Source: a virus
IMG/VR virus record: IMGVR_UViG_3300024261_000108
Location: 1-31,163 of that record
Strand: one strand, 5' to 3'
Length of the DNA stretch: 31,163 nucleotides
Within the stretch, counting starts at the first letter, position 1. Every line of letters starts with the position of its first letter. Of the stretch, positions 3,166 through 28,928 are shown in pieces. The translations under genes and the position numbers were made by a program. A model generated the notes under the pieces. It did not search any database and was not told where the DNA came from. It saw only the letters and a list, made by a program, of their open reading frames with translations.

Positions 3166-4025
3166 AAGTAATTTGGGTAAATTTGCGTGGGTAGTTCATC
3201 AGCGCCAATGTTTAAGAATTCGGTTGTTATCTCAAACTTGCCGTCTGTGCGTTCGTGAATTGCTGGCGCTTGCTTTAGCCATTTATCTTCCAGAAAAGTA
3301 TTGAAAACGTCTCCAATGATTGAAGACTGCGTAACCGTTGGCGGGCCGCTCAAGATAAGATCAACAACCCTGAAGGTTGACCATTGGCTCGATGTTTGAA
3401 GGTGGTCAATGGTCAGGTTCGTATTTGCTGGAACAACCTTCACATTGCGTAACGTGTATTTTGTCACGTCGTAGGTTGTATGGCCTCTGACAACCAAGCC
3501 CGCTAATTCTTCCGCCAGGGCTTCATTGGCGGCTGTAATGTTTGCGTTGTCTGCGTTCTTGTAAACAATGTATTCATCCAAATCAAAAACTAAATCCTTG
3601 TCTGAGTCACCCGCTGAAATGCCGGTTGCAACCTTGGATTTGTATGATTCAACAGCCAGTAAGATCCGTTGAAGGAATCCGTTTTCGTTTTCGATGTCGG
3701 CCAGTCCAACATAGTTTGGATGCTCCTCAATGTTGCGCTGGATTGTGTAGGGTTGAAACGTCCAAGTGTTGGAGTCCTCGGTGTTTTGATCTGGCTCGCT
3801 ACTGTCAGTGTTTGAAAAGGTAACCTTGAGCGTGCCAAGATTCTTGTCCTGTGTCGCCTGGATGTTTGAGGCGTAGTCTGTGTAAAGAGTGTTTGTCTTG
3901 GCTGCGTCAATTAAAGACCACTCCCCCAAATACGTATAAACCGAAGACCATCCGCGCTCCCTTGTCCAATTACGTTCCAAGGATTGAAGCTGGATTGCTG
4001 TGCTGCCTTTCCATGTAGCGGTCAT
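3162..4025 (-). CDS. Hypothetical tail structural protein
   Basis: This 287-aa acidic protein has no membrane span or signal, with frequent Tyr/Trp and Asn/Asp as in beta-rich tail-tip proteins. It follows the tape-measure gene with ATGA overlap and precedes the small protein and LamG fibre, where distal-tail/tail-hub proteins usually lie. No recognisable catalytic motif was found. Distal tail or tip role is inferred from position only. Confidence 0.6.
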   Translation of the reverse strand: MTATWKGSTAIQLQSLERNWTRERGWSSVYTYLGEWSLIDAAKTNTLYTDYASNIQATQDKNLGTLKVTFSNTDSSEPDQNTEDSNTWTFQPYTIQRNIEEHPNYVGLADIENENGFLQRILLAVESYKSKVATGISAGDSDKDLVFDLDEYIVYKNADNANITAANEALAEELAGLVVRGHTTYDVTKYTLRNVKVVPANTNLTIDHLQTSSQWSTFRVVDLILSGPPTVTQSSIIGDVFNTFLEDKWLKQAPAIHERTDGKFEITTEFLNIGADELPTQIYPNYL

Positions 4026-4864
4026 TGATTAAGCGGCGCCGTGTTCTTGTCTGTTGCTTTTGTGTTTCTCTCGATGTTTTCCAAAAGCTTGTTTTGTAAA
4101 ACATTCATTTGAGTGACTGAATTTCTTGCATCTTGATCAAACGGCAATGCCACAAGCGGGCCAAGTTTTTCAATAAGATCAGAAGCCCCTTGGTAGAGGT
4201 TTCCGAGCGCAGAAGCACCCTCTTGCTGAGTCTTTGTCCATGCGTCGGCTGTTTCGCCAAGTTCCATGACTTGTTCGTTTGAGAATGCCGGACCAATGTC
4301 GCGGCCTTCTTGCATCATTCCTGAAAACCCGCTTTGGAATGTCGGAATTAGTTCCGGGCCTGATCTCCCCATGATGGCTTGAATATCTGCGAGCATGCTT
4401 TCCTTGTTCACTCCTTTTTCAACCTGCTTTGAAATTATGTCTAAAAGTTCAACCGGCGTATTGTTCTCAAGTGTTTCAGGCGTGATCCCAAAGCGTAAAA
4501 ACGGATCAACCATTTCGGCTGACCCATCAAGCACGTCTCTTTGTGCTGCGGATAATCGCTTTACGCTTTTAGCAACATTGTCAATGCTCGCGCCGCTTTG
4601 CCTTGCTGCGTAATCCATGACTTGAAAGGATTCAGGATCAACTTGGATTTTTGCTGCCTCATCCCGTAACCCTGCGGCTTTATCAAACAAGCTAGTCATA
4701 CCCCTAAACATGGCGCCAACAGCAAAGGCCGTCATGAGCCTGGATTTTATCATTCTTGATGTGTCCTTGCTCCATGTGTCGGCATTACGTTTTGCCTGAT
4801 CAAGCCCAGACTTCCACTTTGACCCATCAAGATTGACTTTTCCTTTTAGCTCAAATCTAGGCAT
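4022..4864 (-). CDS. Tape-measure-like protein, unusually short
   Basis: This 280-aa protein begins FELKGKVNLDGSKWKSGLDQAKR, a start typical of phage tail tape-measure proteins. A hydrophobic Ala/Gly/Met patch follows (about 43-57, LMTAFAVGAMFRGM), then long helical segments including SFQVMDYAARQSGASIDNVAKSV, a pattern shared with the N-terminal part of many tape measures. It sits after the chaperone-position gene (8-nt overlap) and before tail-tip genes. At 280 aa it is far shorter than usual (600 to over 1000 aa), with no long coiled-coil middle. It ends cleanly and overlaps its neighbour, so it does not look broken. Confidence 0.65.
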   Translation of the reverse strand: MPRFELKGKVNLDGSKWKSGLDQAKRNADTWSKDTSRMIKSRLMTAFAVGAMFRGMTSLFDKAAGLRDEAAKIQVDPESFQVMDYAARQSGASIDNVAKSVKRLSAAQRDVLDGSAEMVDPFLRFGITPETLENNTPVELLDIISKQVEKGVNKESMLADIQAIMGRSGPELIPTFQSGFSGMMQEGRDIGPAFSNEQVMELGETADAWTKTQQEGASALGNLYQGASDLIEKLGPLVALPFDQDARNSVTQMNVLQNKLLENIERNTKATDKNTAPLNQ

Positions 4865-7833: not shown

Positions 7834-8721
7834 TTATGCGCTTAAAATTCGTTTTAGTGCGGTGGCGTTACCTACGGAAACACCGTAAAGCAACCCCATT
7901 GAAGTTTTGTATTGTCCCAAGTCTCGTTCATACCATGAACGGAATTGAATTGGTAATCCTGTCTTTGGTTCCACTGCGTTGATTACTTGAACGCGCGGAC
8001 TTAAAGGGTTTGCAACTTGCCGGGCCGCTATCAATAACGCGGAAGGATGGCAAACAAAGCCCATCAGGTTTTCTGAGTTGGTTGGAATGTCCTGGTATTC
8101 GTTTATGCCAAATCCATGAATGAAGCCCGCGCTGTGGTCCCGAATTGCTTCTGGTGTGCCATATGCAGCGGCGTCTTGAATTGCAGCATCCTTCTGAAGA
8201 CTCGCGTTGTAGGTCGGTGGCAATAGGGCAGACCGGACCGACTTTGGAACCTTGGCTGTTGATAGTGCGCCCGCCATGTCTGCGAGGTCGTCACTGTCGA
8301 AATTTGCGGCGGTAATGACTGAATTGGCTGAAAAGTTGGCGTTGGTTACAAGTGCAAGCAAATCATCCATCACCGTTTTGACGGTGGCCTCAACCGCTGG
8401 CTCTACAAATACGCGTTGCAACCAGCCTTCGTTACCAGCCTTGGAAACTTCCAAGTCAGTGAAACCGTGGACGTGGCCTTTGAAATTTGAAAGAGTGATG
8501 GCCTTTGCTGTGCTTGTTACATCTTGCACATCGTAGCCATCACTCAAATCCTGCGTTGTTACACTTGACGGCACGCGAGTTGTGACCGATTGCCCTTCTT
8601 GGTTTATTTCCGTCGAGAAGTCGCGCACAAATGCGGACAAATGAAAGAAATTGCTACCAAGGTAATCAAGGGTTTGTTCGGCAATCGCTGCAAGATTTAC
8701 GCCGCCAAGTGTATTTGCCAT
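7834..8721 (-). CDS. Major capsid protein paralogue 2
   Basis: This 295-aa protein is a close paralogue of the gene at 8725-9618. My hand alignment counts about 196 identities over 297 columns (66%), one 2-residue gap, and identity in blocks such as VTTRVPSS, TTQDLSDGYDV, GFTDLEVSKAGN and DIPTNSENL. The fold pattern (N-terminal helix, E-loop-like basic stretch, long spine helix around VMDDLLALV) fits an HK97-fold coat protein of the P22-coat-like group. It is intact, starts 3 nt after the first copy and has no Shine-Dalgarno site of its own. Divergence is spread along the length, so it is an old, maintained duplicate. Confidence 0.75.
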   Translation of the reverse strand: MANTLGGVNLAAIAEQTLDYLGSNFFHLSAFVRDFSTEINQEGQSVTTRVPSSVTTQDLSDGYDVQDVTSTAKAITLSNFKGHVHGFTDLEVSKAGNEGWLQRVFVEPAVEATVKTVMDDLLALVTNANFSANSVITAANFDSDDLADMAGALSTAKVPKSVRSALLPPTYNASLQKDAAIQDAAAYGTPEAIRDHSAGFIHGFGINEYQDIPTNSENLMGFVCHPSALLIAARQVANPLSPRVQVINAVEPKTGLPIQFRSWYERDLGQYKTSMGLLYGVSVGNATALKRILSA

Positions 8722-8724
8722 AAT

Positions 8725-9618
8725 TTAAGCAGATGTGATGCGCTTCAGCGCGGTTGTGTTACCAGCGGCAACACCGTAAAGCGTGCCAATGGAAACCTTG
8801 TAAGACCCCAAGTCTGGATCATACCATGCGCGGAACTGCAAAGGTAATCCGGTTGTTGGGTCAGTCACGTTTTCAACTTGCAAACCTGGGTCGGCTGGTG
8901 TTGCTGGTTGCCGCGCGGCCAACAGTAAAGCTGACGGATGCAGGGCAATTGCCGCAAGGTTTTCTGAGTTGGTTGGAATGTCGCTGTATTCAAACGCATT
9001 GAATCCATGTATCCGGCGAACGGCGTGATCTCTGACCGCATCCGCTGAACCGTAGCTTGATGCGTCTTGAACAATCGTATCCTTTTGAATACTCGCGTAA
9101 TAAGTTGGAGGCAGAAGCAAAGCGCGTTCGCTCTTTGGAACCTTCACCGTTGACAAGTCTGCGGCTAAATCTGCCACTTCATCAACGTCAAAGTTTGCGG
9201 CGGTAATGACTTCGGCGGTTGGTGAGTTGTAAGTTGCAGCAACAACCAAAGCCAATAGGTCGTCCATGACAACATTCAAAACCGACTCAAGCGCGGGCGC
9301 AATGAATACGCTTTGCAACCAGTCAACATTACCAGCCTTGGAAACTTCCAAGTCAGTGAAACCCATCACATGGCCCTTGAATTTATCAAGTGTAATAGTC
9401 TTCGCTGTGCTGGTCATGTCCGTTACGTCATAACCATCAGACAAGTCCTGAGTCGTCGTGCTTGACGGCACGCGAGTTGTTACAGACGTTCCCTTTTGGG
9501 CGATGTCTGTTGAGAAGTCGCGCACAAATGCGCGAAGCGGATGAAACTCATAGCTTAAATAATCCAATGTGTCATTGGCGATTTGAGCTAGATTAATTCC
9601 GTTCAGGGTATTAGCCAT
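8725..9618 (-). CDS. Major capsid protein paralogue 1
   Basis: This 297-aa HK97-fold-type coat protein candidate begins MANTLNGINLAQIANDTLDY, with VTTRVPSSTTTQDLSDGYDV (about 46-65), a GFTDLEVSKAGN block and VMDDLLALV spine helix. It follows the protease and coiled-coil scaffold, the canonical place for the major capsid gene, and starts 4 nt after the scaffold stop. The 66% identical copy directly downstream means that two coat-like subunits may enter the shell. No frameshift or truncation is seen in either copy. Which copy builds most of the shell cannot be told from sequence. Confidence 0.8.
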   Translation of the reverse strand: MANTLNGINLAQIANDTLDYLSYEFHPLRAFVRDFSTDIAQKGTSVTTRVPSSTTTQDLSDGYDVTDMTSTAKTITLDKFKGHVMGFTDLEVSKAGNVDWLQSVFIAPALESVLNVVMDDLLALVVAATYNSPTAEVITAANFDVDEVADLAADLSTVKVPKSERALLLPPTYYASIQKDTIVQDASSYGSADAVRDHAVRRIHGFNAFEYSDIPTNSENLAAIALHPSALLLAARQPATPADPGLQVENVTDPTTGLPLQFRAWYDPDLGSYKVSIGTLYGVAAGNTTALKRITSA

Positions 9619-9622
9619 TTAT

Positions 9623-10060
9623 TTACTTTCGTCGAGGTTTGATGTTTTCGAGATAAAATGCCCGTCGTTCCTTTTGGTCAGAAATGGCTTCATGCTCGGT
9701 CCAAAGGTCTTCCATTGATTTATCAACGGTGTTTACTTCGGTGTTTTGGTTGTCCTCGACTGATCGCTCAACGCCCACTTGCGACAAAACCTTGACGGCT
9801 TGTTGACTGGCGCTTTCCTGCTTTTCTTCGAGAGTCTGATTAGCTTCTGTTAGAAGCTGAATTTTTCCGTTTGCTTCATCCAGTGCGGTTTGATGCGCGG
9901 CTTTCTGGTCGGCCAATTCTGTTGCATGGCTTTCCTTCAGCGTCTCAATGGATGCCTCAATTGAAGCTTTGCTTTCGTTTGCGGAGCTTAAATCTTTTTC
10001 AAGAACCGCAATCTGTTGGTTTGCTTCAATCAGGTTTAAAGTTGTGCCTAGAATTTTCAT
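9623..10060 (-). CDS. Coiled-coil scaffolding protein
   Basis: This 145-aa protein is preceded by TTAAGGTAAGT before the ATG at 10060, a good ribosome site that selects this start over an upstream in-frame TTG. Residues about 12-90 form a heptad-rich coiled coil (IEANQQIAVLEKDL, TELADQKAAHQTAL, LLTEANQTLEEKQE), followed by an acidic linker and a basic C-terminus (ENIKPRRK). A helical, charged protein between an S49 protease and the capsid genes matches lambda Nu3-type scaffolds, whose basic tail binds coat. Confidence 0.7.
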   Translation of the reverse strand: MKILGTTLNLIEANQQIAVLEKDLSSANESKASIEASIETLKESHATELADQKAAHQTALDEANGKIQLLTEANQTLEEKQESASQQAVKVLSQVGVERSVEDNQNTEVNTVDKSMEDLWTEHEAISDQKERRAFYLENIKPRRK

Positions 10061-10068
10061 ACTTACCT

Positions 10069-10090
10069 TAATGGTCAAAAGTCCATTTAA
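10069..10090 (-). repeat. Intercistronic motif, copy 2
   Basis: This 22-nt element overlaps the protease stop codon and precedes the scaffold Shine-Dalgarno site. It differs from the copy at 12537-12558 at one position. Read on the minus strand it contains TAAATGGACTTTTG, a stop overlapped by ATG and a three-codon reading frame. The ends (AATGG / CCATT) can also pair as a small hairpin. Confidence 0.6.
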
Positions 10091-10866
10091 GCTAATAAGC
10101 TCAACACGTCCGCTGTGGAATTAACCACGCCAGACGCCAAGCCCGCTTCCACTGCTTCGTATCCTTCAAAAACCTGACCTTCCATATTTTCAGTTGGTAT
10201 TGAATGCTTTAATGACACTTCAGACTTGAACCTTGCATGCCATTTATCAACGTTGGTTTGCAGTCTTTCGCGGGCGTCTTCGGAAAGCGGTTTGAATGGT
10301 GCATAGTCAAGTTTGTGTTTCCCTGCGCTGATCGCGTTGACCTTGAGGCCCATCTTTTCCAGAAATCCGGTTTGATCCAACAGCGCGACGTAAACGCCAA
10401 CGCTCCCAACCTCTGCGGTTTCTGAAACAAGAATATTATCGGCCTGTGACGCTATCCAATAGGCCGCGCTTGCGGCGGTTCCTTCGGTGTAAGAAGTTAA
10501 AGGCGTTTCAATTGCCCTGATCCGACCCGCCAGTTCGGGTAAGCCCGTTACGGTTCCACCTGGGCTATCAACGTGCATTAGAATATGTGTAACGTTTGGG
10601 TCAGCGTCAGCGTTGATTAAAGCGGTTTCAATATCATTGTAATCCGACATCCCAAACATCTTATCCCATTGCGTCAAATTCTTACCTAGTGGCCCATGAA
10701 CAGGAACGACTGCCACTGAACCGCGCATGAGATACCCCGTTTCTGCGGGCTTATGGGCGCCCTCAACGTCAAAATCAATCGCGGTTAAATACAGTGTTTG
10801 CAGATAATCAGGGCTGATTGCCCAGAGGTCAGTTGTTATCTGATGAAGTAATTTGTGGTTCGTCAT
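10087..10866 (-). CDS. S49-family (SppA-like) prohead protease
   Basis: This 259-aa protein has a ClpP/crotonase-type core: VAVVPVHGPL (about 51-60), THILMHVDSPGG (93-104), the nucleophile region EGTAASAAYWIAS with Ser133, GSVGVYV (154-160), and SAGKHKLDYAP (180-190) with the general-base Lys near 183-185. Single-domain S49 peptidases of this kind mature phage heads and may encode a scaffold in their C-terminus; here the scaffold is separate. The start at 10866 is chosen for least overlap with the portal gene (38 nt). ATG 10938 is possible. Neither has a good Shine-Dalgarno site. Confidence 0.85.
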   Translation of the reverse strand: MTNHKLLHQITTDLWAISPDYLQTLYLTAIDFDVEGAHKPAETGYLMRGSVAVVPVHGPLGKNLTQWDKMFGMSDYNDIETALINADADPNVTHILMHVDSPGGTVTGLPELAGRIRAIETPLTSYTEGTAASAAYWIASQADNILVSETAEVGSVGVYVALLDQTGFLEKMGLKVNAISAGKHKLDYAPFKPLSEDARERLQTNVDKWHARFKSEVSLKHSIPTENMEGQVFEGYEAVEAGLASGVVNSTADVLSLLA

Positions 10867-12283
10867 TGTTAAATACCGGGTTTGGTTGTCTCTGTGATAA
10901 TAGGGCAATTGCTGTGTCCAATGTAATGTCATGGTCAATTGTCAGACGTTTTGCCCTTGTTAATAAATCGGACGCTTCACGCTCGACTTGGTTTCTTAAC
11001 TCCTCCCAATCTTGGCCGCGCTCCCCGGCGTCTTCAGCAAGCGTTCTCGTCCCTAGTTTAAGCGCGTCCGCGTTGGCTTTTGAGTCTCGTCCGTTATCAA
11101 CGGTTATCTTTTTTGGTGGCTGCCAGCGGACGCGCCAGAATCCTTCGGCGTGTGCCAAGTCGCCGCGCTTAATTCCCGCGGCAATAACCCACGCATAAAC
11201 TCGATTGGAAAACTTTTCGATAGTGTCTTGACGTTCCTCAAATCGCCGTTGGGCTTTTTCTAAGATGAACCGGGAAGCGGTGCCTTGCCTGGCTGGGTCA
11301 ACAATAAACTCGTAAGGCAAACCCATCCCAAGGGAAACCTCCCGCGTCAGATGCTCAATGAAACCTTGAAAGGTTGCGTTTGGTCGGTTGCTTGCAAAGC
11401 TGGTAATGTCCTCCCCAATCTTGAGCCGTGGAATCATTCCGGCTTGCATTGTGTCCCATGGAACGTTCCCTGTGTCGGCGGCGGTGTAGCCTGTTTCAAT
11501 TAAGCTCTGGCCGTCGTCGGCGGTGCCGCCCTGCGTCGTGATTGCAATTCCAATGGCGGACGACATTTTGACGCCAACCTTTTCATAATCCAGAATTTCC
11601 ATCTGATCCCTGACATGATCAGTTGCATGGGCTAACGCGCTTACCCCGCGCAACTGTGCCACTCGGTCAGGATCGTAAATGAGCACAAAATCATTTGCTG
11701 AAACGGTCTTGAATCCCTCGCCATCACGCAAACTGTAAGCCGTTGGCCTTCCGGCCTTGGATGCCTTAACCCCATCGTGTGCGGTTAGCTCGCGGTCTTT
11801 ACTTTCAACGCTGTGTGATTCAATGACTTGAAGCTGTGGAAATCCATTGTTTACCATTAACAACCCAAGATCACCGTCAACATCCATCCGGATCGAGGCC
11901 AGTTTTTGCATCTGGTAGAAATTAAAAACCCCTGACACGTCGGCTACCTTGCACCATTCGGCAAAGTATTGTTCATAATCACCAGCGGCGCCTTCAACCA
12001 ATGATTGAGGCTTAATGCCACGCCCAACCGAATACCGCGCCATATCGTTGACTGCGCCCCGCACCATGCCAGAATTGACATACAACCAGCGGGCGTAACC
12101 CATCAAGCGGCGCCTGACTGATTTGTTCAGCGTGTGCTTTGAGTCAGAAACGGCGTAAGGAATTGAAGACCTGTAACGGTTCACTTCATTTCCACGATAC
12201 CACCCTGGCGTGTAGCCGCGCTTTATTGGTTTGGTTGTGGTCGTGGTTAACTGTCGGCCATGCTGATCATATAAGTTACTCAT
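10829..12283 (-). CDS. Portal protein, lambda gpB-type
   Basis: This 484-aa protein matches the lambda-class portal family (PF05136 type). Its N-terminus has SVRRRLMGYARWLYVNSGMVRGAVNDMARYSVG, followed by a wing region, a VSALAHATDHVRDQMEILDYE helix, and a clip/stem portion with FIEHLTREVSLGMGLPYEFIVD. It forms the dodecameric ring at the packaging vertex. Its ATG overlaps the upstream stop as ATGA, and its 3' end overlaps the protease start. Length is close to the usual 480-530 aa. Confidence 0.88.
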   Translation of the reverse strand: MSNLYDQHGRQLTTTTTKPIKRGYTPGWYRGNEVNRYRSSIPYAVSDSKHTLNKSVRRRLMGYARWLYVNSGMVRGAVNDMARYSVGRGIKPQSLVEGAAGDYEQYFAEWCKVADVSGVFNFYQMQKLASIRMDVDGDLGLLMVNNGFPQLQVIESHSVESKDRELTAHDGVKASKAGRPTAYSLRDGEGFKTVSANDFVLIYDPDRVAQLRGVSALAHATDHVRDQMEILDYEKVGVKMSSAIGIAITTQGGTADDGQSLIETGYTAADTGNVPWDTMQAGMIPRLKIGEDITSFASNRPNATFQGFIEHLTREVSLGMGLPYEFIVDPARQGTASRFILEKAQRRFEERQDTIEKFSNRVYAWVIAAGIKRGDLAHAEGFWRVRWQPPKKITVDNGRDSKANADALKLGTRTLAEDAGERGQDWEELRNQVEREASDLLTRAKRLTIDHDITLDTAIALLSQRQPNPVFNNDEPQITSSDNN

Positions 12284-12536: not shown

Positions 12537-12558
12537 TAATGGGCAAAAGTCCATTTAA
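12537..12558 (-). repeat. Intercistronic motif, copy 1
   Basis: This 22-nt element overlaps the large terminase stop and lies just upstream of the small gene starting at 12531. It is 21/22 identical to 10069-10090 and shares a 15/16 core (AAATGGACTTTTGCCC type) with 2931-2946. On the minus strand the stop TAA is followed at once by ATGGACTTTTGC, so a short restart frame exists. Confidence 0.6.
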
Positions 12559-14327
12559 GGTTCTGGCTCTTGTTCAATGAAAAGCTTGGCGATTAAAGCG
12601 GCAACAACTTGCATACATTCGCAATCCCAACCGTGATTGTCGCGGCGGATCTGCTTCCAAATTAATCGAGGCTTGCCGTTCTTATCCAACATTTCTTGCT
12701 TACGCTCGGAATCCAGTTGCCTCGCGTAATCGTCAGCCATGGCGCCAAGGTCGCAAACCTCCCATGGATGTGACCGACCAGATTTCAATAATGACATCAT
12801 GTCTTTGATTGAAGGATTAGACCAACGGAACACAGGCGGCGCAACTCTGCCGGTTGAGCTGACCCGCGTTGGTTTGGAATAGGCCCGCTTAACTTCACCC
12901 CCAGGCGTTTGGTGCGCGTAGCTGTCTCGATCTTCGCCGCGCATACCGATCCAGCCATATTTTGCGCATGCCACTAAAACGCGTTCGCGCTGGTAACCAA
13001 CATCAAGGAAGGTCTTGGAGTCTTGAACATTGAATTCCTTCTGCATCTCTCGGATGTCTTCAAAGCTCCCAAGCCTTCGAAACCCAAGGATGCGTGATTC
13101 ACCACCTTTGGCCCATGCTCTTGCAACTGCCCAAAAGTCTTCAAGGTATTGCTGGCAATCAACCGTCAAGAATCGGTGTGCTTCATCTTCCCAGTCTGTG
13201 ACCGGATCATATGAAGTGGATACAACCTTGTTGACTTCGGTGTGCTTTGATTCCTTCCATGTTTCCGCGAGGCGTAACGTTACAAATTCCCGCAGTGGAA
13301 TAATGAAACCTGTGGCCGCTGATGCTTTAGCTTTCAGGAAGTCGATAACCAACGAACTCCAAGGCATGACTGAAGGAGGCAAGGTTAATTGGTTAAATGA
13401 AAAGCTCCTCGTTTTTGGCGTCGGGTTGTCGTTGGTCTGAATATAGCCGCCGCCGTTCACCATCAAGCGCCAATTCTTTTCAGTGTTTTTATGAGCCTTG
13501 CTGCAATGAGGGCAAACCATTTTGACGGTTGGCGCCAGCCTCTCATAATCCCATTCGCCGCCAGGTTTCGTTTTTGAGTCTGTCGCCCATTTAACGGTGG
13601 CGTAAAAATCTGGTTTGAATAATTCGGCGCATCCTTGACATCGGAGTGACCACACTTCTTGAGTGCCGCTTTGATGCTCAAGGTCAAAGTCATCCCCCGC
13701 GTTTTCCGGCGTTGAGGAAAACCAAAGCTTTCGGTTCCAGTATCGTGTTGTTCTTGCCCGTGCCCGTTTAACCATCCCTGGCTTCCATGCTCCAACCTCA
13801 TCGCCAAACAGCCAGCGAATTGACCAAGCCCGAAGAAAATTATTGTTTGCTCCTCCCATTTTAAGAGTGCATGAGGCAAAGAAAATCTCTGTGTTTGTCT
13901 TCCGGTGTCGGTCTTGAGGGAATTGGTTTTTCAGAGGTTCGCAAGATTCTATCACTGGTATCATTCGCTCTTTTGCAAAGTCCTTTGTTGCGTCCTCGTC
14001 TTGCATTACGATCATGGTCGGGGCTGGATGGTTAGCCAAGGCCCATGCCGCTGCGATTTGCATTGAGATTGTCTTGCCGGTTTGCGCGGCACATTTCAAA
14101 ACTACCGTTTCAACTTCTGGATTTGATACGGTTGACAGTGGCCCTTTCAGCCATGGAGTTTCATTCGGCTTGAATTGGTTTCCGTATGGTGACTCTCGAA
14201 GCCTTACGTTTTTCTCACCCCAATCGTAAACAGGCGACGTGTCAAACTCATGGAAACATTGAGGCGATACCTCAAGAATCAAGCTTCGAATATTTGTGGC
14301 GCCGCAACTTTTCAAGGATGTCTTCAT
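12555..14327 (-). CDS. Terminase large subunit, GpA type
   Basis: This 590-aa protein has a Walker A-like CAAQTGKT at 79-86, a Walker B-type RWLFGDEVGAW with D176/E177, and a two-pair Cys zinc knuckle (CQGC near 234, CPHC near 273). It continues into a C-terminal nuclease region with FLTVDCQ and late Asp residues, as in lambda gpA (PF05876). It pumps DNA into the prohead and cuts the packaged DNA. gpA enzymes usually cut at cos, so a cos site is expected, but I could not identify one. It overlaps the small subunit gene by 56 nt. Confidence 0.9.
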   Translation of the reverse strand: MKTSLKSCGATNIRSLILEVSPQCFHEFDTSPVYDWGEKNVRLRESPYGNQFKPNETPWLKGPLSTVSNPEVETVVLKCAAQTGKTISMQIAAAWALANHPAPTMIVMQDEDATKDFAKERMIPVIESCEPLKNQFPQDRHRKTNTEIFFASCTLKMGGANNNFLRAWSIRWLFGDEVGAWKPGMVKRARARTTRYWNRKLWFSSTPENAGDDFDLEHQSGTQEVWSLRCQGCAELFKPDFYATVKWATDSKTKPGGEWDYERLAPTVKMVCPHCSKAHKNTEKNWRLMVNGGGYIQTNDNPTPKTRSFSFNQLTLPPSVMPWSSLVIDFLKAKASAATGFIIPLREFVTLRLAETWKESKHTEVNKVVSTSYDPVTDWEDEAHRFLTVDCQQYLEDFWAVARAWAKGGESRILGFRRLGSFEDIREMQKEFNVQDSKTFLDVGYQRERVLVACAKYGWIGMRGEDRDSYAHQTPGGEVKRAYSKPTRVSSTGRVAPPVFRWSNPSIKDMMSLLKSGRSHPWEVCDLGAMADDYARQLDSERKQEMLDKNGKPRLIWKQIRRDNHGWDCECMQVVAALIAKLFIEQEPEP

Positions 14328-14834: not shown

Positions 14835-15461
14835 CTATAACAAGACTTCTTGAGCCATTCTTGTTGCTGCGGCTTTGCAATAATCTTCATCCTTTTCTAT
14901 CAAAACAGCCTTTTTGTTTAAATCTTTGGCCGCTCTGCCAGTTGTGCCACTTCCCGCAAACGGATCCAAGATTGTATCAGATTGATTTGCAATGTTTATA
15001 CACCATTTAAAAACCTCCAATGGTTTTTGCGTTGGATGCAATTTTCCTTTGTAGTCGCCCTTAGCAAGTGGATCATATTGCAAAACACGAACATTGCTAT
15101 CAAGTGAAGTCCACGCGAGTTCGGCTTCGGCGTATGTTCTGCCTTTAAATCCTGCCCCTTTATCCCATACAAGCCACTGTCTTGTCGGAGGCAATCCCAT
15201 GTAATTGCCACCCCAAATAATTGATTTTTTTGCAGATAATAATAGACCTTGTAATAGTAAAGGATTAGGCGCGGATTGATCCCAATTTTTTTTCTCGAAA
15301 TTATTTTTGCCTTTGTACCCGACGTTGCCTCCGTCCATGTTAATCCCATAAGGCGGATCGGTTAACATTAAGTCAAACTTACCAAGTTGAGGGACAATTT
15401 GCCGGCAATCCCCGTGATATATGGTTACGTTGTCGTCTTGATAATATGGCTTTAAACTCAT
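14835..15461 (-). CDS. Amino-group DNA methyltransferase (N6-A / N4-C), beta class
   Basis: This 208-aa protein has catalytic motif IV TDPPYG (D35-Y38), a HPTQKPLEV motif (142-150) and the AdoMet-binding motif I DPFAGSGTTG (166-175). That IV-then-I order is the beta class. DPPY is typical of N6-adenine but N4-cytosine enzymes can share it. It is short, with a minimal target-recognition region. No restriction enzyme is near, so it is an orphan that probably shields phage DNA or tunes packaging and expression. Its ATG overlaps the stop of the small HTH frame (ATGA). Confidence 0.85.
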   Translation of the reverse strand: MSLKPYYQDDNVTIYHGDCRQIVPQLGKFDLMLTDPPYGINMDGGNVGYKGKNNFEKKNWDQSAPNPLLLQGLLLSAKKSIIWGGNYMGLPPTRQWLVWDKGAGFKGRTYAEAELAWTSLDSNVRVLQYDPLAKGDYKGKLHPTQKPLEVFKWCINIANQSDTILDPFAGSGTTGRAAKDLNKKAVLIEKDEDYCKAAATRMAQEVLL

Positions 15462-17871: not shown

Positions 17872-18164
17872 GATTCTTGTATTTCTTCCCAAATGGTTCT
17901 AATTTTCTTTAAAAATATAGGGTCTGTTTCGGCTTGGTCGGTGATTGCCCGGTGCGCGTAGCCCACGGTTTGGTGACATCTCTTCCCGAAATTCCGAGCC
18001 ACTTCGCTTAAACTGAAACCTTCCTCAACTGCGAACGCCATCGCGGTCATTCTCGGTATAGCTATTGCTGGCCGCTTGGTCCTCTTCAGCATTGCCCTAG
18101 AGGTTAAACCAAACCCTTGCGCGGTCTTGTCGATGATTTCAGTGATTCGTTTGTTGTGGCTCAT
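17868..18164 (-). CDS. Stand-alone DnaA domain IV-like protein
   Basis: This 98-aa protein corresponds to the DNA-binding domain IV of DnaA alone: RPAIAIPRMTAMAFAVEEGFSLSEVARNFGKRCHQTVGYAHRAI, including the helix-turn-helix and the H-x-TV-x-x-A signature. The AAA+ ATPase part is absent by design, since both ends overlap neighbours by ATGA. It should bind DnaA-box-like sites, perhaps in the phage origin or to compete with host DnaA. It lies between the C5 methyltransferase and SSB. Confidence 0.8.
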   Translation of the reverse strand: MSHNKRITEIIDKTAQGFGLTSRAMLKRTKRPAIAIPRMTAMAFAVEEGFSLSEVARNFGKRCHQTVGYAHRAITDQAETDPIFLKKIRTIWEEIQES

Positions 18165-18901
18165 ATCAATCCCTCTGAAAGAATTTTGAATGCTGTTGCC
18201 GCCACTGCTGGAACTTGCCCGTTTCCAATGGTTCTAGTCCTGTCCACATAATTGGCCACCCCATTGTGTGCTCTGCAAAGTTGGGGTGAAGGTACAGAGG
18301 ATCTTCCCTGCAAATCCTTAATCCCTCTGACATCTTGCTCCCACGGAATTCCGGACTCCCGACAAACCGGGCCCTGCATGCTCCTATGTACTCCGATGCC
18401 ACGACTGTTGGTAGCCAACAACCAGAACCGGGCCCGCCTATGCCAAGCTCCGATGTCTCCAGCTCCCAACACTCCCCATCGAGCATGCATCCCCATTTTG
18501 GCCACGTCTGCGAGAACGGTTCCCAATCCTCGAAAAAGGATCGCTGGTGAGTTCTCCACGAATGCAAGTCGCGGTTTAACTTCGCAAATGATTCTGGCCA
18601 TTTCTTTCCAGAGTCCTGACCGGGCCCCTTCAATTCCATTTCCATTGGCGTTGGCAACACTGATGTCTTGGCAAGGGAATCCTCCGGCAACGATGTCAAC
18701 TTTTCCTCGCCATGGTCGGCCATCGAATGATTTGATGTCTCCGAAAATTGGGAAGTCGGGCAAGATTCCGTCTTGTTGTCTGGCTTTGAGGACTTGTTGG
18801 CAGTAAGGCTCGATTTCAACGGCACAGACTGTTTTATGTCCAAGGAGCATTCCTCCAAGGATTCCGCCGCCTGCCCCTGCAAATAAGTGTAATTCTCGCA
18901 T
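18161..18901 (-). CDS. DNA cytosine-5 methyltransferase (orphan)
   Basis: The start at 18901 has GAAGGATGAC directly before the ATG, preferred over a frame extending to 18985. The 246-aa enzyme has motif I FAGAGGGILGG (7-17), the catalytic Cys77 in GGFPCQDIS, a motif VI variant FVENS (114-118; ENV is usual), motif VIII RRARFWLLA (155-163), a very short target-recognition region, and motif X-like IGNGQVPA. It methylates cytosine at C5 in an unknown short site. No nuclease partner is nearby, so protection from host restriction is the likely job. Confidence 0.9.
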   Translation of the reverse strand: MRELHLFAGAGGGILGGMLLGHKTVCAVEIEPYCQQVLKARQQDGILPDFPIFGDIKSFDGRPWRGKVDIVAGGFPCQDISVANANGNGIEGARSGLWKEMARIICEVKPRLAFVENSPAILFRGLGTVLADVAKMGMHARWGVLGAGDIGAWHRRARFWLLATNSRGIGVHRSMQGPVCRESGIPWEQDVRGIKDLQGRSSVPSPQLCRAHNGVANYVDRTRTIGNGQVPAVAATAFKILSEGLI

Positions 18902-18902
18902 G

Positions 18903-19130
18903 TCATCCTTCACCTTCCTGTGAGTAGCTCCATCCCATTTCATCCCGTAGGTTTTCAAATTTGTCTGCCACTTTGGAAAATCCAATTTTCCGAATCAACC
19001 CAACGACGATGGCATCTGCTTGCGCATGGGCAATATCTGGGTGGCTGTTTAATTTACCCAATGCCATAAGGGCATGCGCTGATTCAAATCTGGCTTTCTC
19101 CCATTTATTTGCATTCTCAAGAGGGTTCAT
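18903..19130 (-). CDS. Small hypothetical helical protein
   Basis: This 75-aa protein (MNPLENANKWEKARFESAHALMALGK, later AIVVGLIRKIGFSKVADKFENL) is predicted all-helical, without cysteine or membrane span. Its ATG overlaps the upstream stop by ATGA and the C5 methyltransferase starts right after its stop, so it is part of the same translationally coupled series. No family recognised. Confidence 0.55.
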   Translation of the reverse strand: MNPLENANKWEKARFESAHALMALGKLNSHPDIAHAQADAIVVGLIRKIGFSKVADKFENLRDEMGWSYSQEGEG

Positions 19131-25813: not shown

Positions 25814-26890
25814 TCATAGCATCAACCATTCTTCGGTTTCATTCTTGCTGATCATCTGCCGGTAATGCTTCAACATGATCGCTCCTGAGTGGCCAAGCTG
25901 CTTGGTTGCCTCATCCATTCCGTAAATATTGTAAAAGTGGCTGGCGGCTGTGTGCCTTAAAACATCGCTGGGCCATTTCTTAATATTAGCGTGTTTTTTA
26001 ATTGCGGCGCGGCGCCTCCTGAAATTAATAGAAAACTTCAAACCTTTGTGCTTCTCGAATATTTTAACCGCTGGCGGAAGCATGGCAACAATGCGGCGGT
26101 TGCGCGTTTTTGAGGCGTCACCGCTCACCACAACTTGACCGCGCTCCAGGTCAACCGAATTACCTGTCAACCTCATGCACTCATCTGGCCGGATGCCGCA
26201 GAATAACGCCAGGGCAAAGTAAGTGAGCATGTCAGGGTCAATTTCTGAAGCGGAATCAATCAACTGCTTGCATTGCTCCACGTTTAAAATTTGCGGGTCT
26301 GCCTGGTCAATTCTAATGGATTCAAGCCGTTTCGTAGGGTTTTCGGCAATCAATCCTTGCCGCTCGGCCCACGAGAAAAACACCTTGAGTCGTGTCTGCA
26401 TCGTGTGACGTGTGGCCGCGCTCCCGTCAAAGCTGGTAATCCATGAACGGAGTTCGCCGGTGCCTACGCTGCCAATTTGCCGTTTTTCCCGGCCTTGAGC
26501 GAATCTTGCAAGGGTTCTTGTCATTTCTTCTGTGTAACGTGACCGCCTTCCAGCCTCTTTCTTCAGCTCCATGAAATCGGCAATGGCATCTTCCAGCGTG
26601 GATTTTCCATGGGAGAGGTGCGTTTTCTGGTAGGATTCCCAAACTTCAGCCAAATTCATGCCGTGATCCTTGATTTCGTCCAATATCTCAAGAATGCTCC
26701 ACTTTTTACGTGCTTCGAGTTCATCCCATTGATTTCCTAGCAACTCACGCTTCTTTTTGTAGGTTTTTAAAACCGCGTTGGCTGTGGTTTTAGTGTCAAC
26801 AAAGCGCCGCCGCCGCTTTCCCGCCACCCTCCCAAGGTCAATTTCCTGTTTTTTCCTGCCATGTATAACCACTGCGCGTATCTTTGCCAT
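25814..26890 (-). CDS. int: Tyrosine recombinase, phage integrase
   Basis: This 358-aa protein has an N-terminal basic arm-binding region (1-55), a core-binding SAM-like domain (about 95-180) and a catalytic domain with R234 (GIRPDE), K261 (SKTRNRR), R312 (DVLRHTAASH), H334 (LGHSG) and the nucleophile Y343 (LKHYRQ). The HxxR histidine is replaced by D309, a substitution tolerated in some integrase subfamilies. The gene starts 15 bp from the first attP arm repeat and reads away from attP. Confidence 0.95.
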   Translation of the reverse strand: MAKIRAVVIHGRKKQEIDLGRVAGKRRRRFVDTKTTANAVLKTYKKKRELLGNQWDELEARKKWSILEILDEIKDHGMNLAEVWESYQKTHLSHGKSTLEDAIADFMELKKEAGRRSRYTEEMTRTLARFAQGREKRQIGSVGTGELRSWITSFDGSAATRHTMQTRLKVFFSWAERQGLIAENPTKRLESIRIDQADPQILNVEQCKQLIDSASEIDPDMLTYFALALFCGIRPDECMRLTGNSVDLERGQVVVSGDASKTRNRRIVAMLPPAVKIFEKHKGLKFSINFRRRRAAIKKHANIKKWPSDVLRHTAASHFYNIYGMDEATKQLGHSGAIMLKHYRQMISKNETEEWLML

Positions 26891-27093: not shown

Positions 27094-27147
27094 GTTGCAT
27101 ATGCTGTAAGTGATGGTATGCAATACCTTGCAAATGGTCTTTCTTGA

Positions 27148-27166
27148 CGGTGGCAACTCGTTGGCA
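27148..27166. promoter_or_regulatory. attP arm-type sites, right pair
   Basis: CGGTGGCA (27148-27155) and CGTTGGCA (27159-27166), again 11 bp start to start and in the same orientation as the left pair. The block TGGCA-CTCGTTGGCA is shared by both sides. Confidence 0.6.
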
Positions 27167-27178
27167 TATTTTATCTTA

Positions 27179-28267
27179 ATGCGTTCGCTGCGCCCACGAG
27201 TGAATCCTCGAAAAACAAGAACCGCTAGCCCTTTTCAGAAAAGCCTTTATGTGTCCGCTATGTTTAACAAGGCTAATGGTTACGGTGAGTTGTCGCGGCA
27301 ATTCTGTGTTCATGCGGCAAAGCGTGTTGATTTAGGGATTTTGCCGCATGGTGATTATGCGGCTCAGTTACGTGATTTAGGACTGGCGCACGCCCTTGGT
27401 TCAAATCCAGTCAAACCCAATTCCCTTTTTTCAATTCAGCCTACATTTTCACTAATGCAAGCAGGATGGGGAAACCGCAACGGGATTTTAACAATGTTTG
27501 AAACGTCAAAACTTAACTCTGCATGGTGTCGGGCAATAAATTCTTTTGATGTTCTTATTACCCCAAGCCATGCAAACGCGGTTGATTTTGCAGAACAATT
27601 AAGGATTCCAGTTGAAGTCTGCAATCTTGGCCATGATGAAAACCTGTTCAACCTTCAACCATACAACCAAAGCGGGCCTTTTGTTTTCGGTGCGGCGGCT
27701 CATGTTGGGCATGGAAGGACGCGCAAGGGAATTGAGCGAATCATTGACTGGTTTGAATCTGCATTCCCAAATGAAAAGAATGTGCGACTTTCTTTGAAGT
27801 TAAATGAATTTCCTGAAAACGGAATCATACCAAAGGATTCAAGAATCTCAATTATTGAAAACGACGTTACAGACCTTGAGTGCAAAGAATGGTTAACATC
27901 ACTCCATTGCTATATTGACGGCTCGACCTTTGAAGGGTGGGGCATGTGGAATCATCACTCAATGGCAACAGGTCGCCCCGTAATTGGGACAAATTACAGC
28001 GCCCGCTGTGAGTATTTCAAATTTGGTAATCACATCCCCATTGGATACAGAGTTGTTGAGGCGTCTGATCAATATAAAGGCTTGGGTCATTGGGCAATGC
28101 CTGACCGGTCAGACGCAATTGAAGCTATGCGGTGGGCTTTCAATAATCCTGACAAGTGTGAAATTATTGGATTAACGGCTTATAATTCCATCAAATATCT
28201 GACTTGGGAGCGGTTTACGAATCGGGTTTTATTCCTGCTTCGCAAACATCAAATCGCTTCATATTGA
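27179..28267 (+). CDS. GT4-family glycosyltransferase
   Basis: This 362-aa GT-B protein has an N-terminal acceptor domain with KSLYVSAMFNKANGYGELSRQF and TMFETSKL, a hinge with VCNLGHDENLFNLQP, and a donor-binding domain with FGAAAHVGHGRTRKGIERII, then SLHCYIDGSTFEGWGMWNHHSMATGRPVIGT, the E-x7-E-like region of GT4 enzymes. The start at 27179 keeps the first beta strand; ATG 27260 is the alternative. It stands alone on the plus strand beside attP, a usual place for lysogenic-conversion genes. Its end overlaps the convergent GT2 gene by 53 nt. Confidence 0.8.
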   Translation: MRSLRPRVNPRKTRTASPFQKSLYVSAMFNKANGYGELSRQFCVHAAKRVDLGILPHGDYAAQLRDLGLAHALGSNPVKPNSLFSIQPTFSLMQAGWGNRNGILTMFETSKLNSAWCRAINSFDVLITPSHANAVDFAEQLRIPVEVCNLGHDENLFNLQPYNQSGPFVFGAAAHVGHGRTRKGIERIIDWFESAFPNEKNVRLSLKLNEFPENGIIPKDSRISIIENDVTDLECKEWLTSLHCYIDGSTFEGWGMWNHHSMATGRPVIGTNYSARCEYFKFGNHIPIGYRVVEASDQYKGLGHWAMPDRSDAIEAMRWAFNNPDKCEIIGLTAYNSIKYLTWERFTNRVLFLLRKHQIASY

Positions 28268-28928
28268 AAGGTACATTAAAAATCTCATCTCCTGGCTGTC
28301 CGCCCCACTTTTGGATGTATCGGCAATGATTTGAAACCTGACCCGACTTAATGCAAGCGATTAACTCACGAGAAGACTTATTGTCTTTCATTACGGATTC
28401 AGTGAGCGGCGTGTCAATTACTTGGCGCTTAGGCGTCTTCCAACCAACGCCCGCCAACTTCATTCGATGGTAATAATCAACGTCCTCGTAATAGGCAGGA
28501 TAAAAAGCCTCATCAAACAAACCTATCAATTCCTTTGCAACCGCTGGATGCGTCCCAAAGAACGCGAAATTTTCATTCTGACCGGAAAATATTGGATGTA
28601 ATGGATGTTCATCCATAACGGTAAGCATAGATTCAATGCCGGTTGGCAAGAGCATTTGGTCGTCGTTAGAAATAAACACTTGGCTGTTGTTCAATTCCAG
28701 CCCTAAATTCCAACTTGCAGCAACCCCTAGATTGTTGGCAGTCACCACTTCAAGTTGCTCGAATTTAAACCGCTTCAAACGGTGTTGATTCAAGCGTCCG
28801 CCTGAGTTGTCCACGACAACAACACGTCCAGGTTTAACGGTCTGATTTGATACACAAAACAAAAAACGGTCAAGCAGGTCAAACCTGTTTATTGTTGTGA
28901 CAATTAAGGCTGTTGAATTATTTACCAT
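28215..28928 (-). CDS. GT2-like glycosyltransferase (GT-A fold)
   Basis: This 237-aa protein shows the GT-A pattern: ALIVTTINRFDLLDRFL at the N-terminus, VVVDNSGG (nucleotide site), NNLGVAASWNLGLE, the DxD-like SNDDQML near 88, and FYPAYYEDVDYYHRM (ED acceptor motif) near 142. It should transfer a sugar from a nucleotide donor. It follows the zinc-ribbon and FN3 genes with a 7-nt overlap, so it is in the late/tail transcript, unlike the plus-strand glycosyltransferase. Virion protein or host envelope glycosylation are both possible. Confidence 0.8.
   Translation of the reverse strand: MVNNSTALIVTTINRFDLLDRFLFCVSNQTVKPGRVVVVDNSGGRLNQHRLKRFKFEQLEVVTANNLGVAASWNLGLELNNSQVFISNDDQMLLPTGIESMLTVMDEHPLHPIFSGQNENFAFFGTHPAVAKELIGLFDEAFYPAYYEDVDYYHRMKLAGVGWKTPKRQVIDTPLTESVMKDNKSSRELIACIKSGQVSNHCRYIQKWGGQPGDEIFNVPFNMKRFDVCEAGIKPDS

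Follow-up and report, generated by a model that had tools for sequence, protein, structure and literature searches.

In bacteriophage T4, gp23 forms the hexamers of the head and gp24 the vertex pentamers, and duplication followed by specialisation has been proposed as the history of the pair (PMC9958956). T4 is a myovirus of ~169 kb in which the two proteins are ~20% identical, and some gp24-bypass mutations in gp23 lie in the A-domain, at an intra-capsomer interface (PMC9958956). T4 was the sole virus named with such a two-protein shell in the open-access literature searched, where no other phages with duplicated capsid genes were found; a 2026 review gives T4 as the example and links the arrangement to its large genome (PMC13185644). 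Mixed shells have been demonstrated for the Family 2B encapsulins of Streptomyces lydicus, in which Enc1 and Enc2, two similar HK97-fold proteins encoded together, each cluster with their own kind and carry their diagnostic differences in the A-domain (PMC12407261). These, however, are cargo-holding bacterial nanocompartments rather than capsids that package DNA and have a portal and a scaffold. Verrucomicrobia phage P8625, the nearest cultured capsid relative of the locus described here, is a siphovirus with a ~47-nm head and a genome of 32.9 kb (PMC4642752).

The window analyzed here, the whole of a virus record of 31,163 bases, carries its genes mostly on the minus strand. The head operon runs in the order terminase small and large subunits, portal, S49-type protease, scaffold-like protein, capsid proteins A and B, and tail genes (Table 1), so that portal-protease-scaffold-A-B corresponds to T4 genes 20-21-22-23-24. 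A sequence-only reading had described two intact capsid-like genes 3 nt apart and about 66% identical. This held, as both frames are open and full length and the two proteins share 196/297 residues (66%). Its remark that the changes are spread throughout was right in that they run along the whole length, but the divergence is uneven: identity in the window is 87% over the E-loop region (about residues 45-97) and 58% in the A-domain tip.

Table 1. Coordinates of the capsid pair and its head-operon neighbors in the window.
Feature	Coordinates	Strand	Description
Capsid protein A	8725..9618	(-)	297 aa, HK97 fold; PHROG 283, E 1.5e-32
Capsid protein B	7834..8721	(-)	295 aa, HK97 fold; PHROG 283, E 1.5e-25
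A stop/B start junction	8722..8724	(-)	3 nt
Probable gene-conversion tract in A	9331..9363	(-)	Residues 86-96, 11 codons identical to B; permutation p 0.0005
Probable gene-conversion tract in B	8434..8466	(-)	Residues 86-96; permutation p 0.0005
Charged protein, putative scaffold	9623..10078	(-)	151 aa; between protease and A
S49/ClpP-type prohead protease	10087..10938	(-)	PHROG 53, E 3.7e-67; Pfam Peptidase_S49
Portal protein, lambda family	10829..12283	(-)	Pfam PF05136, E 7.3e-49
Terminase large subunit, gpA type	12555..14327	(-)	PHROG 15, E 2e-63

Profile searches matched both A and B to PHROG major head protein families, and their place in PHROG 283 agrees with the profile match, the HK97 fold and a head-operon position with terminase, portal, and protease. 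The AF2 monomer models were of moderate confidence (pLDDT 79 and pTM 0.79 for A; pLDDT 76 and pTM 0.73 for B). In Foldseek, both models matched solved HK97-fold capsids with a probability of 1.00; the best match by E-value was Mycobacteriophage Douge gp8 for both, and TM values of 0.65 were obtained with the T7 capsid (for A) and P22 procapsid subunits. The P22-type major head proteins of PHROG 283 and 267 and Douge gp8 share the sequence family and fold with A and B, but have about 380-430 aa and serve as single coat proteins. Cultured relatives were few. Only P8625 matches over the capsid length (at about 41% identity; 41-43% for A and B to its ~295-aa P22-like coat), and it has one capsid gene; its portal (25%) and terminase (24%) also match those of the window, the latter being the best terminase match in the phage collection, where no close one was found. 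Unlike two-component encapsulins, whose cargo operons lack portal, terminase, and tail genes, A and B lie in a phage head operon with a tape-measure gene.

Relatives were gathered by four IMG/VR scans, from which re-fetched contigs were removed; most contigs were fragments. Because three scans took the best 80 of 300, 419, and 113 matches, respectively, the capsid family has more members than were sampled. The paired coat genes for which the sequence-only reading had proposed to survey relatives were found in many of them: at least 87 records (the window and 86 further ones) have the two genes in tandem, in each case on one strand and with A first. Five more records of the clade end too early to show a complete pair, breaking off at A, inside it, or a few codons into B; in three of them (L029, L064, and L070) the B start is readable. 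Among the matches listed, no record had A and room for B but lacked B. Ascertainment bias was considered as a cause; one search was led by an A sequence, so that A-only genomes would have turned up, and none did. Scanned over their whole length, 22/22 paired records had exactly two capsid copies, and 22/22 records of the sister clade, to which P8625 belongs, had exactly one. Neighboring genes are syntenic across the paired clade, and the operon protein with the highest conservation is usually A (in L018, 70% for A, 66% for terminase, 63% for portal, and 55% for protease). Where both genes are complete (81 loci), the gap between A and B is 1-53 nt. An assembly artifact was ruled out, since the same junction occurs in independent contigs and other gap lengths in distant ones. 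Three contigs (L004-L006) encode A and B proteins identical to those of the window, L007 encodes a 95%/87% version (A/B), and dozens of more distant contigs have gaps of other lengths within the 1-53 nt range.

An IQ-TREE tree of 55 sequences, rooted on the single-copy P8625-like genes, separated A and B together from the single-copy genes with support of 100/100. All B sequences formed one clade (99/98), as did all A sequences with moderate support (82/89). Since A and B are each one clade, the tree shows that one duplication preceded the radiation of the paired clade, a result that would still hold if A were paraphyletic. Repeated independent duplications were unsupported, because the tree requires no more than one change for A and one for B. 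The closest sequences to the window proteins were those of L007, both for A (95%) and for B (87%). The sister group of the A and B clade consists of single-copy genes, including that of P8625; on this topology, therefore, the duplication is separate from that of T4. Descent from the gp23/gp24 lineage is also opposed by the PHROG 283/267 and P22-like matches, and no T4-family match was found in the phage collection.

Selection was assessed as dN/dS from genome pairs with measurable synonymous change. The medians were 0.074 for A, 0.084 for B, and 0.076 for single-copy genes, indicating that neither copy is under relaxed selection and that purifying selection on both is strong. The sequence-only reading had named relaxed selection on one copy as what would speak against it; both lie near 0.08. 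Recent duplication or a decaying copy is ruled out by the tree together with these values. A and B are thus shown to be ancient paralogues that strong purifying selection has kept in all lineages sampled. The tree, dN/dS, and retention strongly support the idea that both coat genes, though diverged, are maintained in a way comparable to T4 gp23/gp24, which are likewise tandem HK97-fold paralogues. Unlike T4, the window represents a genome of ~31 kb with coats of ~295 aa that are 45-69% identical across the clade, a lambda-type portal, a gpA-type terminase, and an S49 protease.

The two copies do not evolve at the same rate. The B/A distance ratio had a median of 1.54 over 253 genome pairs, with B faster in 90% of them, the pairs being non-independent and such fractions descriptive only. 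As a yardstick, gp24 was 2.11 times faster than gp23 across eight T4-like phages, and faster in 28/28 pairs, so the downstream paralogue is the faster one in both systems. We propose, with a probability of about 0.5, that A and B form a two-component capsid of ancient paralogues in which A would supply most of the lattice as hexamers and B would occupy the vertices. Both proteins would enter the same shell. The slower-evolving A, encoded just after the scaffold, would form the hexamers and hence the bulk of the shell, and B, made from the same message in a smaller amount, would form the vertex pentamers, like gp24 in T4. After duplication, each copy could have been tuned to one ring size, so that neither would need to switch between five-fold and six-fold packing. 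The assignment is by analogy: in T4, genes 23 and 24, in the same order, encode the hexamer and the vertex pentamer protein. The faster B, the T4-like gene order, and the A-domain differences favor A in the lattice and B at the vertices. Other observations count against this. In the L079 subclade (three genomes) the B/A ratio was 0.99, without a rate difference; and with A and B 45-69% identical, compared with ~20% for gp23/gp24 (PMC9958956), the sequence does not demand strict homo-capsomers.

The faster divergence of B and its own fixed residues would also suit a structural role outside the main lattice, such as a portal vertex surround or an inner-head protein. We regard this as quite unlikely, because the full predicted HK97 fold of B and its A-like E-loop fit a place in the lattice best.

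Domain labels for the differences between the copies follow our reading of the predicted secondary structure. In the spine helix, the strongest differences are A103 Ser/B103 Arg, A107 Ala/B107 Arg, and A115 Asp/B115 Lys; elsewhere, A164 Glu/B162 Leu and A243 Asp/B241 Tyr stand out, together with a group of positions in the A-domain tip (A199-209). The spine helix was the sole domain enriched in A/B divergence, and only weakly (p 0.04 before correction), so that concentration of the divergence in one domain was rejected. The least diverged region across the clade was the E-loop (45-88). When genomes were compared within clades, A was closer in its E-loop region (45-97) to the E-loop of B from the same genome than to that from other genomes (0.642 versus 0.616 permuted, p 0.001), whereas the other six of the seven regions tested showed no such same-genome covariation. 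This covariation fits two proteins that touch the same neighbors in one lattice, although it could instead be caused by gene conversion.

These features bear on the main, tentative alternative, namely that A and B share capsomers, in which their positions would be either fixed or random, and that the second protein would tune stability or surface instead of filling the vertices. The similarity that A and B have kept (45-69%) and their matched E-loops speak for it, and the fixed or nearly fixed charge differences in the spine (A115 Asp/B115 Lys and A107 Ala/B107 Arg) could make A-B contacts. There is a precedent in Enc1/Enc2, which tile randomly (PMC12407261). The mostly faster evolution of B, on the other hand, suggests unequal roles, and the gene order is T4-like. 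A more specific form, in which the capsomers of a tailed phage would combine the two HK97-fold proteins in a set pattern through A-B contacts that depend on the matched E-loops and the unlike charges of the spine helix, is likewise tentative; no viral hetero-capsomer of two HK97-fold proteins was found in the literature searched.

Gene conversion has left probable traces in the window. Residues 86-96 of A and B are encoded by 11 identical codons (Table 1), a stretch that stands out because synonymous sites elsewhere in the pair are near saturation, and that is probably a recent conversion. A further tract was detected in L007 (residues 257-265, p 0.003), and L067 gave a signal of p 0.03 without correction. 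With clear tracts only in the window and L007, conversion was rejected as the origin of the overall A/B similarity. Short stretches still exchanged between the copies would suit a redundant duplicate, kept by chance or dosage without division of labor. That explanation appears very improbable, as one old duplication has been followed by retention of both genes in each of the 87 paired records, dN/dS is near 0.08 in both genes, and positions have been fixed differently in each copy.

The start of B follows directly after the A stop in the window, with no Shine-Dalgarno-like motif upstream of B there, so that B probably depends on translational coupling to A. The leader of A in the window is adenine-rich. 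These initiation sites support unequal expression of A and B only weakly. Across the 81 complete loci, a Shine-Dalgarno-like motif was present upstream of A in 0 and upstream of B in 8. Such rarity suggests a host in which initiation does not rely on these sites, as is common in Bacteroidota.

The gene between the protease and A probably encodes the scaffold, judging from its position and composition: the product is charged and has a coiled-coil look by eye. It had no family match in PHROG or Pfam and no match in cultured phages of the phage collection; its position is kept in the paired relatives examined, with 37-66% identity. In other phages, variants of coat and scaffold proteins determine head size. 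A and B, both intact and constrained, might accordingly be used in varied ratios to build heads of different size, for example depending on host or conditions. We consider this unlikely. There was no sign of a second genome size, of a separate promoter, or of another scaffold, the operon having a single scaffold-like gene, and the window (31 kb or more) is near the length of the single-copy P8625 genome (32.9 kb, PMC4642752). Sequence alone does not separate the functions offered by the sequence-only reading. The split into hexamer and pentamer proteins, with A in the lattice and B at the vertices, is the one favored, a mixed shell comes second, and nothing was found for a size switch.

Taken with the separate duplication, the hexamer/vertex assignment suggests that a two-part shell like that of T4 evolved independently in little-known small tailed phages. 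A clade with ~30 kb genomes apparently did so separately, and every sampled member keeps both genes; paired capsids near 30 kb would weaken the argument that ties such shells to large genomes. A and B would then be a second, less diverged example of paired coats. Preference for five-fold or six-fold rings is a long-standing question for HK97-fold proteins. Because A and B are still 45-69% identical and align almost without gaps, the few positions fixed differently in them are direct candidates for that preference.

Several other genes of the window were recorded. The tape-measure-like protein (4022-4864) has 280 aa, compared with 521 aa for the product of CDS19, its positional counterpart in P8625, and its shortness predicts a very short tail. 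A tyrosine integrase gene (25814-26890) suggests a temperate phage; in the bacterial genome collection, no prophage of the paired clade was found, only single-copy loci of the sister group. Near the record edge, a possible glycosyltransferase gene (27110-28267, plus strand), recognized by eye and without a Pfam match, overlaps the end of a convergent Glycos_transf_2 gene (28215-28928, minus strand); a role of these genes in surface or DNA modification is possible. Two DNA methyltransferases of different types (C-5 cytosine; PHROG 67 type) are encoded at 18161-18985 and 14835-15461, and the first of them is overlapped by another open frame, of 246 aa, in a different reading frame.
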